This document shows, piece after piece, positions 31,824-38,128 of a DNA stretch of 64,000 bases. The notes under the pieces are model-generated. The model did no database searches. It was given only the letters and a program-made list of their open reading frames with translations, and was not told where the DNA came from. Position 1 is the stretch's first letter; each line of letters starts with the position of its first letter. Source of the stretch: Candidatus Fluviicola riflensis (GTDB lineage: Bacteria > Bacteroidota > Bacteroidia > Flavobacteriales_D > Crocinitomicaceae); the NCBI GenBank assembly GCA_002243285.1, contig CP022585.1:186001-250000 (forward strand), read 5' to 3'. The translations under genes and the position numbers were made by a program.

Positions 31824-32050
31824 AGTTTTTTGCCGTTTAAATACAGTTTTTGAGAACCGGGAATCCCAGTAACAACCGGGAGGGAGTTTTCGGTTCTAAT
31901 ATATTGCTTTCTGCCACAACGACATGACATTCATTCACAAAATATGTGAAACCCATTAGAGTCGATTATCGTAGCAAGCAGAGCAATAGTCGGCAAAGGT
32001 GTAAAAGAAAGAATTCACAACCTGTTAATTTTTGTTAAGTCGTCTTTTGA

Positions 32051-32203
32051 GATGTTTGATTTTTGATGATGGCTGTTTGATTAGCCCTTCGTACTAAACT
32101 AAACGATCTTTCTTCTTTTCCGGGGATTTTAAACTCTTTTTCGAGAACTTTCATCAAACATTCAAAATCCAACATCAAAAATCCAGCATTCAACATCAAA
32201 ATC
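32051..32203. repeat. AT-rich imperfect inverted repeat, copy C, in the moxR upstream region
   Basis: The 412 bp between moxR and the next gene hold a left arm (32051-32082, GATGTTTGATTTTTGATGAT and GTTTGATT) and an inverted right arm (32152-32203, with CATCAAACATTCAAAATCC and AACATCAAAATC). The composition resembles copies A and B. The rest of this gap (31824-32050) shows only a weak AGAACCG/CGGTTCT dyad at 31853-31897 and no clear promoter. Confidence 0.55.
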
Positions 32204-32235
32204 TTATATTCATCCTTTTTTTAACTTTCACCGCT

Positions 32236-32598
32236 ATGGAAGAGCACAAGTGCCTGGAATGCGGGCAAAAATTATCCGGAAGAAAAGATCAGAAATTCTG
32301 TTCCGATTATTGCCGCAACACGTTTAATAATCGTCTCAATGAAGACGCCACCAGTTACGTGCGCCGGATCAACAATATTTTACGCAAAAACCGACGAATT
32401 CTGGTCGCACTTAATCCATCCGGAAAACGAACCGTAGATGCCATCACCCTCGCCGAAGAAGGATTTAACTTCCATTATTTCACTAACATCTACCAAACCC
32501 AAAAAGGGAGCACCTATTATTTCTGCTACGATCAGGGCTACATGCGGGTCGAAAATGATCAATATGTGTTGGTGCAGAAACAGGATTATGTGAAATGA
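32236..32598 (+). CDS. Small zinc-ribbon protein
   Basis: The 120-residue protein opens with a CxxC...CxxxC zinc ribbon (CLECGQKLSGRKDQKFCSDY, then CRNTFNNR) of the kind grouped as DUF2116-like. A basic helical segment (RRINNILRKNRRILVAL) and a small beta-rich C-terminal half (YQTQKGSTYYFCYDQGYMRV) follow. Such ribbons usually contact nucleic acid or ribosomal proteins; the actual role is unknown. The stop codon lies 8 bp before the structured non-coding element. Confidence 0.8.
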   Translation: MEEHKCLECGQKLSGRKDQKFCSDYCRNTFNNRLNEDATSYVRRINNILRKNRRILVALNPSGKRTVDAITLAEEGFNFHYFTNIYQTQKGSTYYFCYDQGYMRVENDQYVLVQKQDYVK

Positions 32599-32605
32599 TT
32601 TCATT

Positions 32606-33080
32606 CCACTTTTTTCCAAAGCAAAAAAAGTGGAGCAAAAATGCTTTAGCGCCATTCCAAGCCGCTCGTCAAAAATGGCTTTATTCTGTGTTTTTAAGTC
32701 AAAAGTGGCAGATCGGGATCTGAAACGCAAGCGCTTTTGACAAAACACAACGAACAGCCATTTTTTTGACTTCGCTTCCTTGAATGGCGCGTCGTTCGCA
32801 ACCTCACCTTTTGGTAAGGATTTCAGATTTTGGTGACGGAGTAAAACCGACCATTAGAAAAGGTACTCCAAAATGGCATTAAGTAACGATCGTCAGAGAA
32901 CAAGGTGAAGTTAAGCGTGATCAAGACCCTGTTTGAGCTCAGTCATCGATTATCCGCGAAGAGGGTAATCGTCGATGACGTTTGCGAGTTGGGTTGAGAT
33001 AGCTTAACAAGCCAGAGTTCTCAAGATCGGGACTTACAGCCTTGATTTTTTGTCTACTTTTTTATCAAGAAAAAAGTAGA
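32606..33080. repeat. Structured non-coding element bounded by similar hairpins
   Basis: No credible gene lies in these 475 bp. Each end carries a hairpin of the same design: CCACTTTTTT (32606-32615) with AAAAAAGTGG (32624-32633), and TCTACTTTTTT (33053-33063) with AAAAAAGTAGA (33070-33080). Inside is a long imperfect stem, 32649-32695 against 32742-32790, sharing GCGCCATTC, TCAAAAA-TGGCT and GTGTTTT blocks. It encloses GTCAAAAG/CTTTTGAC and the dyad AGATCGGGATCT. A second nested stem pairs 32910-32929 with 32991-33008 around a GTCATCGA/TCGATGAC hairpin (32942-32979). It may be a non-autonomous repeat or a structured RNA. Confidence 0.6.
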
Positions 33081-33103
33081 GGAGCTTTAAAAATAAAGGT
33101 CAT

Positions 33104-33138
33104 AAAAAAACCCAAACACCTACTACAATGTTTGGGTT
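33104..33138 (-). terminator. Intrinsic terminator of the small RNA candidate
   Basis: AACCCAAACA (minus strand, 33138-33129) pairs perfectly with TGTTTGGGTT (33118-33109) around a 10-base loop. Seven T then follow on the minus strand (33110-33104). Confidence 0.8.
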
Positions 33139-33191
33139 ACATCATTTCATTTGGCAATTGTACAAATCAAATGATGAGCTGCTCTACTAAC
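33104..33191 (-). ncRNA. Candidate small RNA of about 88 nt with tRNA-like 5' end
   Basis: On the minus strand an exact -7 box (TACTTTTG, 33197-33204) is followed by a 5' segment resembling a tRNA D-arm (AGTTAGTAGAGCAGCTCAT). Next comes a 14 bp hairpin with one mismatch (33163-33176 pairing with 33140-33153), then a perfect 10 bp terminator stem and a run of seven T. Promoter box, internal hairpin and terminator within 100 bp form a complete small-RNA transcription unit. The D-arm likeness suggests descent from a tRNA gene, perhaps threonine type, but no acceptor stem or T-arm is present. The -33 TTG is not convincing. Confidence 0.6.
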
Positions 33192-33196
33192 TGCTA

Positions 33197-33204
33197 CAAA
33201 AGTA
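33197..33204 (-). promoter_or_regulatory. -7 box of the small RNA candidate
   Basis: The minus strand reads TACTTTTG, an exact TAnnTTTG match. The start site would fall near 33190. The nearest upstream TTG is too close (about 12 bp) to be a normal -33 element. Confidence 0.5.
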
Positions 33205-33590
33205 TTGATTTGTTTCAATCTCAGGCCTTTTGAAACCAAAAAAAATAGTTTTATTGAGTAAACGGTGTGTTTTCCCTATTGAAAAGACTACCTCAGTGAT
33301 TCTTCATGATTCAAATGCGTTGACACACCTTCGGCTTTTAAGTTTTAATAACACTGCATTTCGTTGTCGAAGGTTGAATTTTAGTAACTTCAAAGGTGTT
33401 TGTTGCATGCAAACAGGATGAGTAATTCATCGTATTGAAACCCTTTCTGCCCAAAGGGCTTAATCCAAAGAAGAAAACGGGTTTCGGATCGATAAAATCA
33501 AGACTATATGGAATTATTCTAAATAACCCTGTTTTGCCCGTGCTTACCGTTAAAATATATTAAATTCGCGGGTCTAAAAAATGGTAGATT
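33205..33590. other. Upstream region of the nuo operon
   Basis: No gene is seen in these 386 bp. Small dyads occur: GATGA/TCATC at 33418-33432, and GAAACCC/GGGTTTC at 33437-33485, enclosing CCCTTT/AAAGGG. The latter may fold in the nuo leader transcript. Confidence 0.45.
33534..33568 (+). promoter_or_regulatory. Possible nuo operon promoter
   Basis: TTG at 33534-33536 precedes TAAATTCG (33561-33568), one base from TAnnTTTG, with a rather long spacer of 24 bp. The nuoA ATG is 23 bp further on. This is the best candidate seen, but it is not strong. Confidence 0.35.
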
Positions 33591-33956
33591 ATGTCCTCTC
33601 CAAATGATTACATTCCGATACTCATACAAGCCGTTGTAGCACTGGGCTTTGTGGTAACGGTTCTTGTGGTGACTCATATCCTTGGTCCTAAGCTAAAAGG
33701 CAAGAAAAAAGATGCAAACTGGGAATGTGGAATCGAAGAAGTAGGAAACGCACGTTTCCCGGTTTCCATTCGGTATTTCATGACGGCAATTCTCTTCGTG
33801 TTATTCGACGTTGAGGTCATTTTCTTCTACCCATACGCCGTAAACTTCCGTGATTTGGAACTGGATGGCTTGTGGGCAGTAATGATATTTGTCGGGTTAT
33901 TCCTCACCGGATTTTTCTACGTACTCAAGAAAGGAGCTTTAGAATGGGAAAAGTAG
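33591..33956 (+). CDS. nuoA: NADH-quinone oxidoreductase subunit A
   Basis: The 121-residue membrane subunit of complex I has three membrane helices and the conserved NuoA motifs WECGIEEVGNARFPVSIRYF and LFDVEVIFFYPYA. It contributes to the quinone-site region where the membrane arm meets the peripheral arm. It is the first gene of the 14-gene nuo operon and overlaps nuoB by 13 bp. Confidence 0.95.
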   Translation: MSSPNDYIPILIQAVVALGFVVTVLVVTHILGPKLKGKKKDANWECGIEEVGNARFPVSIRYFMTAILFVLFDVEVIFFYPYAVNFRDLELDGLWAVMIFVGLFLTGFFYVLKKGALEWEK

Positions 33957-34495
33957 AAGTTATTAATGGCGTCGAGACGTTCAACGGAGAAGGTTTCCAG
34001 TTGGCGATGCTCGATAAAGTGATCGCAGCAGCGCGCGCCAATTCGGTGTGGCCGCTTCCGTTCGCTACCTCATGCTGTGGAATTGAGTACATGGCAACAA
34101 TGGGAACCAATTACGATGTCGCCCGTTTCGGAATGGAGCGTATGTCGTTTTCGCCGCGCCAGGCCGATTTGCTGATCGTGGCCGGAACTATTTCAAAGAA
34201 ACTGGCACCTATCCTGAAACAAGTGTATGAGCAAATGGCCGAACCGAAATGGGTTTTGTCTGTTGGTGCTTGTGCTTCTTCAGGTGGCATTTTCGATACA
34301 TACTCCGTATTACAAGGTATTGACCGCGTGATTCCTGTAGATGTTTACGTACCTGGTTGTCCGCCGCGTCCGGAACAGATCATCGAAGGAATTATGAACG
34401 TGCACCGTTTGGTGAAACACGAATCATTGCGTCGCCGGTATTCGGATGAATACAAACATTTGCTGACCAAATACAACCTGAACGAAGATGAGTAA
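33944..34495 (+). CDS. nuoB: NADH-quinone oxidoreductase subunit B
   Basis: The 183-residue subunit starts at the ATG at 33944 (MGKVEVINGVETF); a longer frame from 33872 lies inside nuoA. It holds the terminal N2 [4Fe-4S] cluster, with the double cysteine in PFATSCCGIEYM, plus VGACASSGG and YVPGCPPRPEQ. N2 passes electrons to quinone. Confidence 0.96.
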   Translation: MGKVEVINGVETFNGEGFQLAMLDKVIAAARANSVWPLPFATSCCGIEYMATMGTNYDVARFGMERMSFSPRQADLLIVAGTISKKLAPILKQVYEQMAEPKWVLSVGACASSGGIFDTYSVLQGIDRVIPVDVYVPGCPPRPEQIIEGIMNVHRLVKHESLRRRYSDEYKHLLTKYNLNEDE

Positions 34496-34997
34496 TCCCA
34501 TCACGAGCGACTTGCTCTTACAACGTCTGCAGGAACGTTTCGGTGAAGCGATTCTACAGCACGAATCACCTTACGATTTATTGACGGTTGAAGTCACACC
34601 TTCTTCCGCGCACGATATTATTAAGTGGCTGAAAGAAGACAATGAACTGGCGCTTTCATTCCTCACATTGCTTGGAGCGGTGCATTATCCCGATCAAACA
34701 GGTCGCGAAATGGCTGTGGTTTACCACTTGCATTCATTGGTTCACAATGTGCGTTTGCGTTTGAAAGCATTTTTGCCGATTGAAGATCCGAGTATTGCCA
34801 CCATTACCGATATTTATATAGGTGCCAATTGGCAGGAACGCGAAACCTTCGATTTTTTCGGGGTGAAATTCGTAGGACATCCGAACCTGGTGCGTATTCT
34901 CAATGAAGATTCCATGGATTATCATCCGATGCGTAAAGAATACCAGTTGGAAGATGCTACACGTGAAGATAAAGATGATCGCTTCTTCGGAAGGTAA
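34488..34997 (+). CDS. nuoC: NADH-quinone oxidoreductase subunit C
   Basis: This 169-residue hydrophilic subunit of the connecting module has the signature VYHLHSLVHNVRLRLKAFLP and the strongly conserved WQERETFDFFGVKFVGHPNL. It is separate from NuoD, unlike the fused NuoCD of enterobacteria. It overlaps nuoB by 8 bp and precedes nuoD by 11 bp. Confidence 0.95.
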   Translation: MSNPITSDLLLQRLQERFGEAILQHESPYDLLTVEVTPSSAHDIIKWLKEDNELALSFLTLLGAVHYPDQTGREMAVVYHLHSLVHNVRLRLKAFLPIEDPSIATITDIYIGANWQERETFDFFGVKFVGHPNLVRILNEDSMDYHPMRKEYQLEDATREDKDDRFFGR

Positions 34998-35008
34998 AAA
35001 CGGGAGTT

Positions 35009-36232
35009 ATGAGCGATATTGAACAAATAAAAAAGCAAAGCCTCTTTTCCAACGATACCATCGACGGAGAAATTGCTACGCTGAACTTAGGGCCTACACA
35101 CCCGGCAACACACGGTATTTTTCAAAACGTACTGAAAGTTGACGGTGAGAAAATCCTTTCATCCGAACAAACGGTAGGTTACATTCACCGTGCGTTTGAA
35201 AAACTGGCAGAACGCCGCCCGTATAATCAGATTACACCGATCACCGACCGTTTGAACTATTGTTCTTCACCAATCAATAACCTAGGTTGGGACATGACGG
35301 TTGAAAAACTCATCGGTGCCAGTGTTCCGAAACGCGTTGATTACATGCGCGTGATCATTATGGAGCTGGCGCGGATTGCCGATCACTTGGTGTGTAACTC
35401 GGTAATTGGAGTAGATACCGGAGCATTGACAGGATTTACCTACATGTTCCAACAGCGTGAAGCGATCTACGAACTATTCGAGGAAGTTTGCGGTGCACGT
35501 TTGACGACTAACATTGGCCGCATTGGCGGATTTGAACGCGATTTTTCACCGGTGTTCCACGAGAAACTAAAGAAATTCCTAAAAGAATTCCCGAAACATT
35601 TCAACGAATTCGACAGCTTGCTTTCGCGTAACCGCATTTTTATGGACCGTACCATCGGTGGTGGCCCAATTTCGGGCGAACGCGCTCTGGACTACGGTTT
35701 CACAGGTCCGAACCTGCGTGCTGCCGGCGTTGATTATGATGTGCGGGCAATGAACCCGTATTCTTCTTATGAAGATTTCGATTTCATCATTCCGGTTGGA
35801 ACACAAGGCGATACCTACGACCGTTTCCAGGTTCGTCAGGAAGAAATTCGCCAGAGTTTGGCCATCATCCACCAAGCTTACAACAATCTTCCAGAGGGAG
35901 ATTATTACTCGAAAGACATTCCCGAATTCTACCTTCCTGCAAAAGAAGATGTATACACCAAAATGGAAGCATTGATCTATCACTTTAAAATTGTGATGGG
36001 CGAAATTCCTGTTCCCGTTGGTGAAGTTTACCATAGCGTTGAAGGCGGAAACGGTGAATTAGGATATTATTTAATCAGTGATGGCGGACGCACTCCTTAC
36101 CGTTTGCAGTTCCGTCGACCTTGTTTCATTTATTACCAGGCATATCCGGAAATGATTACCGGACAAACCATCTCGGATGCAGTATTGACATTGAGTAGTT
36201 TGAATGTGATTGCCGGAGAATTGGACGCATAA
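35009..36232 (+). CDS. nuoD: NADH-quinone oxidoreductase subunit D
   Basis: The 407-residue 49-kDa-type subunit lines the quinone pocket with NuoB. Conserved stretches include LNLGPTHPATHGIFQNVLKV (quinone-pocket histidines), GYIHRAFEKLAE, TDRLNYCSS and the C-terminal RRPCFIYYQAYPEMITGQ. Its length is standard for an unfused NuoD. Confidence 0.96.
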   Translation: MSDIEQIKKQSLFSNDTIDGEIATLNLGPTHPATHGIFQNVLKVDGEKILSSEQTVGYIHRAFEKLAERRPYNQITPITDRLNYCSSPINNLGWDMTVEKLIGASVPKRVDYMRVIIMELARIADHLVCNSVIGVDTGALTGFTYMFQQREAIYELFEEVCGARLTTNIGRIGGFERDFSPVFHEKLKKFLKEFPKHFNEFDSLLSRNRIFMDRTIGGGPISGERALDYGFTGPNLRAAGVDYDVRAMNPYSSYEDFDFIIPVGTQGDTYDRFQVRQEEIRQSLAIIHQAYNNLPEGDYYSKDIPEFYLPAKEDVYTKMEALIYHFKIVMGEIPVPVGEVYHSVEGGNGELGYYLISDGGRTPYRLQFRRPCFIYYQAYPEMITGQTISDAVLTLSSLNVIAGELDA

Positions 36233-36233
36233 G

Positions 36234-36782
36234 ATGAGCATAAAGATAACAAACGGAAATGCAGCCGATGAGGTAGCACCGCAGTTCAGCGCCGAACGGA
36301 TGGTTGAGGTACAGCGTATCATCAATCAATATCCTGAAGGCAAACACAAAAGTGCGTTGATGCGCATTCTGCACATGGCCGAAGAAGATTTTGGCGGATG
36401 GTTGAGCGTGCCTACGATGAATTACGTAGCCGGGATTCTCAATATTCAGCCGATCGAAGTATATGAGGTAGCCACGTTTTACACAATGTTCAACATTGAA
36501 AAACCGGGCAAAGTGGTATTGGAAGTTTGCCGTACCGGGCCTTGCATGCTGGTTGGAAGCGACAACATTATTGATCACCTCAAGCAAAAACTGGGCGTGG
36601 AAGTTGGCGGAACTTCGGCTGACGGTATGTTTACGTTGAAAACAGCAGAGTGCCTTGGCGCATGCGGTTACGGACCGATGTTGCAGTGTGGAAAACACTA
36701 CCACGAGCATTTGACGATTGAGAAAGTCGACGCATTACTGGAAACTTTCCGGAAAGAACATTCAACTTCATCGAACAACTAA
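36234..36782 (+). CDS. nuoE: NADH-quinone oxidoreductase subunit E
   Basis: From the ATG just after the nuoD stop (36234) the protein has 182 residues; a start at 36210 would overlap nuoD. It has the thioredoxin-like 24-kDa fold with the N1a [2Fe-2S] ligands in CRTGPCMLVG and CLGACGYGPMLQ. It works beside NuoF in the NADH-oxidising tip. Confidence 0.95.
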   Translation: MSIKITNGNAADEVAPQFSAERMVEVQRIINQYPEGKHKSALMRILHMAEEDFGGWLSVPTMNYVAGILNIQPIEVYEVATFYTMFNIEKPGKVVLEVCRTGPCMLVGSDNIIDHLKQKLGVEVGGTSADGMFTLKTAECLGACGYGPMLQCGKHYHEHLTIEKVDALLETFRKEHSTSSNN

Positions 36783-36784
36783 AG

Positions 36785-38128
36785 ATGGGAAGAAAGCTGT
36801 TATTGGAACACATTGATGTTCCTGGAATTGAAACTTACGAGGTATATCGCAAAACAGGTGGTTACCGATCTGTGGAAAAGGCATTGAAAACCATGTCGCC
36901 GCAAAATGTAGTCGAAGAAGTACAAGCTTCAGGACTACGTGGACGTGGTGGCGCCGGTTTCCCAACAGGAATGAAATGGTCGTTCCTCGCAAAACCCGAA
37001 GGTGTGCCACGTTATTTGCTATGCAACGCTGACGAAAGTGAGCCGGGTACGTTCAAAGACCGTTACCTGATGGAGAAAATTCCTCACCTTTTGGTAGAAG
37101 GAATGATCACTTCCAGCTACGCACTTGGGTGTAACCAATCGTACATCTACATCCGTGGTGAATACATGTGGGTGTTGGAAATCTTGGAAAAAGCAATCGC
37201 CGAAGCTTACGCAAACGGCTGGTTGGGAAAAAATATTTTAGGTTCGGGTTACGACCTTGACCTTTCCGTCGCTCCGGGTGGTGGTGCCTACATTTGTGGT
37301 GAAGAAACGGCCCTGATCGAATCCTTGGAAGGTAAACGTGGAAACCCGCGTATCAAACCACCATTTCCGGCTGTAAAAGGTTTGTGGGGATGTCCGACAG
37401 TTGTAAACAATGTTGAAACCATTGCTGCGGTAGTTCCTATCATAAATGATGGCGGCGCGGAATATGCCAAAATCGGGATCGGGAAAAGTACGGGAACCAA
37501 ACTCATCTCCGCTTGCGGAAACCTGGTAAAACCGGGCGTTTATGAACTGGATTTAGGTGTTTCGGTTGAAGAATTTATCTACTCCGACGAATGGTGCGGT
37601 GGTATTGCCAATGGCAAGAAACTGAAAGCTTGCGTTCCGGGCGGTTCTTCCGTTCCTATTTTACCTGCCAACCTGGTTTGTAAAACAGCCGAAGGAACTG
37701 ATCGTTTGATGACCTACGAAAGTTTGGCCGAAGGCGGTTTCGCATCGGGTTCCATGCTGGGATCAGGTGGTTTTATCGTATTCGACGAAGATCAGTGTAT
37801 TGTTCGCAACACCTGGAATTTTGCCCGTTTCTACGCTCACGAATCGTGCGGTCAATGTTCACCTTGCCGTGAAGGTACAGGCTGGATGGAAAAAGTACTG
37901 CACCGTTTGGAATACGGCCATGGTAACCTGCGCGACATCGATTTATTAGCAGAAATCAATAAGAAAATAGAAGGAAATACCATTTGTCCGTTGGGTGATG
38001 CAGCAGCATGGCCGGTAGCAGCGGCAATCCGTCATTTCCGTGAAGAATTTGAATGGCACGTGACCAATCCCGACGAAGCGCAAAAACGCAACTTCGGTAT
38101 TGCATCGGCTCATGTACCTTTAGTATAA
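36785..38128 (+). CDS. nuoF: NADH-quinone oxidoreductase subunit F
   Basis: The 447-residue catalytic subunit binds NADH and FMN through GLRGRGGAGFPTGMKW and GGGAYICGEETALIESLEGK, and holds the N3 [4Fe-4S] cluster in ESCGQCSPCREGTGW with a fourth cysteine in GNTICPLGD. It oxidises NADH and passes electrons to the iron-sulfur chain. Confidence 0.97.
   Translation: MGRKLLLEHIDVPGIETYEVYRKTGGYRSVEKALKTMSPQNVVEEVQASGLRGRGGAGFPTGMKWSFLAKPEGVPRYLLCNADESEPGTFKDRYLMEKIPHLLVEGMITSSYALGCNQSYIYIRGEYMWVLEILEKAIAEAYANGWLGKNILGSGYDLDLSVAPGGGAYICGEETALIESLEGKRGNPRIKPPFPAVKGLWGCPTVVNNVETIAAVVPIINDGGAEYAKIGIGKSTGTKLISACGNLVKPGVYELDLGVSVEEFIYSDEWCGGIANGKKLKACVPGGSSVPILPANLVCKTAEGTDRLMTYESLAEGGFASGSMLGSGGFIVFDEDQCIVRNTWNFARFYAHESCGQCSPCREGTGWMEKVLHRLEYGHGNLRDIDLLAEINKKIEGNTICPLGDAAAWPVAAAIRHFREEFEWHVTNPDEAQKRNFGIASAHVPLV

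Follow-up and report, generated by a model that had tools for sequence, protein, structure and literature searches.

A putative small RNA gene with an invariant 5' end and two conserved hairpins, divergent from nuoA in Candidatus Fluviicola riflensis

What is known about small RNAs of the Bacteroidota that could guide the reading of a compact intergenic locus? To our knowledge, few such RNAs have been described from the lineage of Candidatus Fluviicola riflensis; a literature search by title and start of the abstract returned nothing on the RNA discussed here, and nothing for Crocinitomicaceae combined with sRNA. Flavo-1, a flavobacterial RNA of unknown function, is not matched by our locus, either at the gathering score or in a permissive scan. 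The best guide is GibS of Bacteroides thetaiotaomicron which, in the cited part of its description (PMC7366714), is an RNA of ~145 nt reported as conserved within Bacteroides, whose conserved single-stranded 5' seed pairs with translation start regions; the same part notes that Bacteroides has no obvious Hfq or ProQ and that no chaperone is known. The RNA predicted here, encoded in a window of 64,000 nucleotides (genome G000), shares with GibS, as portrayed there, the intergenic location, the conserved 5' part, the hairpins and the intrinsic terminator. However, it is shorter, at ~89 nt, it has a candidate target only, and the two are likened by description, not by sequence. Rfp18 of Flavobacterium psychrophilum, according to the cited sections of its report (PMC9723704), is likewise a structured small RNA from a bacterium with TAnnTTTG promoters and is conserved in several species, as is the case here. 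Its pairing, though, is predicted for a third stem-loop, whereas the present RNA has two, and this likeness, too, is one of description and not of sequence (PMC9723704, same sections).

Our analysis suggests that the locus is probably a stand-alone gene for a trans-acting antisense small RNA of ~89 nt, with its own TAnnTTTG promoter and a seed at its very 5' end. Read along the minus strand, the box TACTTTTG is followed by TAGC, AGTTAGTAGAGCAGCT, hairpin 1, the terminator hairpin and a T run that extends to 33104, with box, hairpin 1 and intrinsic terminator all inside ~100 bp (Table 1). The initial annotation had described an exact TAnnTTTG box, a 14 bp hairpin with one mismatch and a perfect 10 bp terminator stem with seven T, and all of these are present: the arms of hairpin 1 (33176-33163 and 33153-33140) form 13 pairs interrupted by a single G.G mismatch between 33168 and 33148, and the terminator stem (33138-33127 with 33120-33109) consists of 10 perfect pairs plus two U.G, two T of the T7 run (33110-33104) also belonging to the 10-pair stem. 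Its further statement, that there is no open frame, holds for the minus strand, where no ORF of at least 60 aa overlaps the RNA, but not for the plus strand, where a mechanical 63-aa TTG frame does; the frames within the RNA are, by eye, ATG-AAA-TGA and ATG-ATG-TAA only. In Flavobacterium psychrophilum, the box has been mapped at -12 to -5 (PMC9723704, cited sections). With this placement the start site would fall on A33192, as we infer, giving an RNA of ~89 nt with AGUUAGUAG as its 5' end, which in G000 continues as AGCAGC.

Table 1. Features of the predicted RNA locus, in window positions
Feature	Position	Strand	Basis
-7 box TACTTTTG, exact TAnnTTTG	33204-33197	minus	sequence; G010 and G005 copies; sigma-A consensus of Flavobacterium psychrophilum (PMC9723704, cited sections)
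Putative promoter region, -38 to -1	33193..33230	minus	78.9% identity with G010, 58.3% in the 60 bp beyond it
Predicted small RNA gene, ~89 nt, predicted +1 = A33192	33104..33192	minus	G000/G010 identity, G005 covariation
Proposed seed AGUUAGUAG, invariant 5' end	33184..33192	minus	same in G000, G010 and G005; 4 bases 3' of TTTG
Hairpin 1, conserved G.G mismatch	33140..33176	minus	13 pairs, 5 with both partners changed in G005
Intrinsic terminator hairpin and T run	33104..33138	minus	6/12 pairs changed on both sides in G005, model-fitted alignment

The case for a gene is carried by comparison with relatives. A blastn search among the 14 genomes of the genus returned one clear homologue, in G010, preceded by an exact TAnnTTTG box (TAAATTTG). 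The two RNAs are 97.8% identical (87 of 89 ungapped columns; two more columns hold gaps), whereas identity is 58.3% over the 60 bp that follow upstream and 65.0-69.2% downstream, and the RNA is better kept even than the neighbouring coding DNA, the identity of the nuo DNA at 33591-37495 being 90.6%. When the 1500 bp before nuoA were scanned for the box in all 14 genomes, a third homologue came to light, in G005, where TAATTTTG (again an exact TAnnTTTG) is followed by TTCC, AGTTAGTAG, a hairpin and a terminator; this box lies ~170 bp from the nuoA start, and the RNA reads away from the gene. The G005 and G000 RNAs are 59.6% identical, and their nuoABC DNA 75.6%. Common to all three homologues are TTTG followed after four bases by AGTTAGTAG, the invariant AGUUAGUAG, and hairpin 1 with its G.G mismatch.

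It is this divergent third copy that gives access to covariation, which the initial annotation had named as a check. In a model-fitted alignment, which leans towards structure, both stems are kept, 98.7% of the pair cells hold standard pairs, and changes on both sides are seen in 11 of 25 pairs, a number reached in none of 500 shuffles and dropping to 0-4 when the partner is slid by 1-3 bases. In a MAFFT alignment, which is not structure-fitted, 5 of the 13 pairs of hairpin 1 are changed on both sides (2 of 500 shuffles are as high), and the terminator is misaligned and has no such pairs. Compensatory changes were found, then, all of them in one comparison, that of G005 with the pair G000/G010, and they do not represent several independent events. 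At the level of sequence, the predicted gene, its structure and its conserved 5' element are well supported, and conservation and covariation both agree with the earlier suggestion of an independent small regulatory RNA gene, which would be transcribed as outlined below. Beside the G005 locus we observed, by eye, a tandem array of related lipoprotein-like genes (L199 4575-7826).

How widely is the RNA distributed? Of 399 sampled genomes of the order, three, namely G000, G010 and G005, contain an exact TAnnTTTG-N4-AGTTAGTAG; as the reversed control pattern is commoner (16 of 399), this count means little by itself, and it is the location of the three that is telling. In a DNA search of 99 genomes (its own and 98 relatives), all match at E <= 10, with G010 as the only clear homologue; the next best match, in G034 (E 5e-7), falls within an 893-aa ORF and was not retained. 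Model R1, applied to the 14 genus genomes, is confident only for G000 and G010 and misses the G005 copy. Over 240 genomes of the family, it matched 11 further genomes with E up to 0.5, none of them with a box four bases 5' of AGTTAGTAG, and these were discarded, L104 and L105 being judged from alignments only. Model R2 recovers G000, G005 and G010 from the same 240 genomes at E <= 2e-16, and six weaker matches (E 0.0019-0.08), all without AGTTAGTAG at the 5' end, were discarded. At E <= 0.1, R2 finds no copy in the remaining 11 of the 14 genomes of the genus, two of these having a completeness of only 83-84%. Among 80 NuoA loci of other organisms there is one TTTG-N3-6-GTTAGTA (L119); it sits at a junction that runs antisense to two long open frames, ~4.3 kb away from nuoA, has no R2 match and was set aside. 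In a tree of nuoABC, G000 and G010 are sisters and G005 stands apart, beside G011 with low support (0.378). Thus, either the RNA gene has long been present in the genus, with frequent losses, or it has moved.

What could such an RNA do? Box and spacing are kept in the three genomes, which suggests that the box is the RNA's own, putative promoter. Leftward transcription would start from it and end at the intrinsic terminator; the seed AGUUAGUAG would then pair with translation start regions of mRNAs, leading to their block or destabilisation, and the mismatched hairpin and the terminator would stabilise the RNA. We take AGUUAGUAG to be the seed by analogy with the 5' seed of GibS, and we infer transcription, the exact 5' end and the antisense mechanism alike. 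Compact, supported by covariation, and with a start site predicted and a seed explicitly proposed, the RNA could serve as a small testable case of seed regulation; the general picture is unchanged, and capture of a tRNA, the unusual part of the initial proposal, is unsupported.

As a target of the seed in G000 and G010, the start region of a choice-of-anchor L gene is a weak candidate, and we consider its role doubtful. The gene (L256; C1:3495311-3496834, minus strand, in G000) codes for a secreted protein of the choice-of-anchor L type (NF038133, E 8.2e-53). Its first 24 coding bases include, close behind the start codon, CTCTACTAAC, a 10-nt perfect complement of RNA bases 2-11, with a duplex energy of -16.4 kcal/mol. 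From -25 to +27, a 53-nt run is identical between G000 and G010 amid differing surroundings; such runs are not unique, a 47-base identical run being found deeper in the same gene. In same-genus genomes without the RNA, the complement is missing from 9 of 9 relatives of the gene, which are distant (55-65% protein identity). At E <= 1e-30 the gene has no match in G005, and it therefore cannot explain the conservation of the seed there.

Searched with the 14-mer complement at up to 2 mismatches, G000 yields 11 non-self sites, and two of the 11 are at a sense start (L256 at +10, L240 at -21), a further one at +36 not being counted as such. In G010, where 18 of 20 sites were examined, there are again two, the L256 counterpart and L239 at +8; a frame of 57 codons in L263, which runs antisense to a long ORF, is left out of this count. 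As a hand estimate predicts ~0.3 sense-start sites in G000, we regard the target evidence as weak. Stronger duplexes are formed by L240 in G000 (-17.1 kcal/mol) and by L239, in G010 only (-21.8), neither of which was seen to be common to both genomes; we favour L256, since both genomes retain its site. Exact 9-mer complements fall at a sense start in none of 7 non-self cases in G000, in 1 of 8 in G005, and in 1 of the 13 examined out of 17 in G010. Within the window, the best pairing among the 55 ORFs of at least 150 codons, a set that leaves out the shorter nuoA, is -13.5, and that of the nuo genes -12.7. The fullest version of the proposal, an undescribed sRNA family of the genus with nine invariant 5'-terminal bases as seed and ~60% identity in the remainder, which represses a choice-of-anchor L surface protein in two species via 10 nt just inside the start codon, is in our estimation unlikely as a whole. 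The complement of the seed, CTACTAACT, is itself rare, occurring 8, 9 and 18 times in G000, G005 and G010 against 82, 71 and 69 times for the reversed 9-mer; CTA codons and stops in its frames, that is codon usage, may explain this, and we claim no avoidance.

Instead of mRNAs, a protein could be the main partner, with the mismatched hairpin and UAGUAG binding an RNA-binding protein that is thereby titrated or recruited. Consistent with this are the retention of hairpin 1 and its G.G mismatch in 3 of 3 homologues, and UAGUAG near the 5' end, with GUAGUAGG appearing again, in G000 and G010, within the terminator hairpin. However, the second GUAGUAGG copy is missing in G005, and what all three homologues keep unchanged is the 5' end, as a seed predicts, which makes a primary role in protein binding rather unlikely.

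A seed-bearing RNA of its own also has to be weighed against a longer transcript, for which the genomic setting is informative. The divergent position upstream of nuo, as initially annotated, is confirmed: all three copies read away from nuoA, those of G000 and G005 from directly upstream of it. The G010 copy is 3.9 kb from nuoA, beyond an intervening 1188-aa ORF (L042 4123-7689) for a delta-60-repeat protein with a T9SS sorting tail, which G000 does not have there. With this ORF between RNA and nuoA, the G010 copy escaped a script that searched the nearest 700 bp upstream of nuoA for hairpins followed by T runs and that, over both strands of the 14 genomes, picked out G000 and G005 only. The predicted RNA start in G010 lies ~115 bp past the stop codon of the ORF, on the same strand, as would fit a longer transcript from upstream whose 3' end and terminator the hairpins would be, with no separate gene. 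Yet G000 and G005 have no same-strand ORF of at least 80 aa between RNA and nuoA, and the box with its spacing to AGTTAGTAG is kept in 3 of 3 copies, so we consider this origin improbable.

Could hairpin and terminator have arisen by chance in drifting spacer DNA? A 91-nt stretch of the G000 sequence folds with -28.5 kcal/mol (z -4.2), none of 200 shuffles being equally stable, and the G005 RNA reaches z -8.4. Folding the 89-nt form leaves the 5' end unpaired, but a short, weak helix covers part of it in the 91-nt and G005 folds. Both strands of 32000-34500 contain two terminators, this RNA's included, against a shuffle mean of 3.1, and a promoter scan of the region performs no better than on shuffles. 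Thus, the anatomy alone is not decisive, and comparison is; with the RNA conserved well beyond its flanks and its stems covarying, a chance origin is very improbable.

The least probable reading of all is that the RNA descends from a captured tRNA-Thr gene that was then reshaped, as the initial annotation had surmised from a D-arm-like segment, or that the RNA mimics a tRNA D-arm. The stretch, AGTTAGTAGAGCAGCTCAT, is indeed present on the minus strand, and among the 30 tRNAs compared (those with loci, of at least 32 tRNA matches in G000) the best is a tRNA-Thr (L057, anticodon TGT by eye) with a local score of 16, reached by none of 1000 random 40-mers of the window. However, a step-10 scan of the window against the tRNAs, all taken in sense, finds six distinct places at 16, the RNA locus among them, and the score declines to 13 in G010 and 10 in G005. 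A relic likeness should be common to the homologues and is not, and TGTAGC, one part of the match, stands upstream of where the RNA is predicted to start; capture was therefore rejected, and the likeness appears accidental. A 17-mer around the stretch has 8 genome matches at up to 3 mismatches, itself included, against 17 for its reverse. ARAGORN detects no tRNA in the 64 kb window, and Rfam 15, which had been suggested as a check, finds 0 families there at or above the gathering score, RF00005 and Flavo-1 included; neither tRNA nor Flavo-1 is among the 17 sub-threshold matches, mostly to eukaryotic snoRNA and miRNA models, of a permissive scan of 451 bp.

The DNA around the RNA gene holds further conserved elements. 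Upstream of nuoA, a palindrome-like site at 33504-33526, TTATTTAGAATAATTCCATAT (CTATTTAGATTTAATCTAAAT in other species), recurs by eye ~65-90 bp from the gene in 13 of the 14 same-genus genomes, all but G011, and is possibly the nuo operator. A further block, GGTCGAAGAAAAG..TTTGTAGAGCGATGATAAAG, conserved by eye ~100-170 bp upstream of nuoA, is found in G001, G002, G003, G006-G009, G012 and G013, genomes without the small RNA, and is perhaps a nuo leader or promoter. Outside the RNA gene, the spacer at 32606-32799 has inverted arms and 94.3% ungapped identity to G010 amid poorly conserved DNA, and is a possible structured repeat. The spacer at 32874-33090, just 3' of the terminator, has in a search of selected loci a 225 bp, 78.7% match elsewhere in the same genome (L006), and may be a dispersed repeat.
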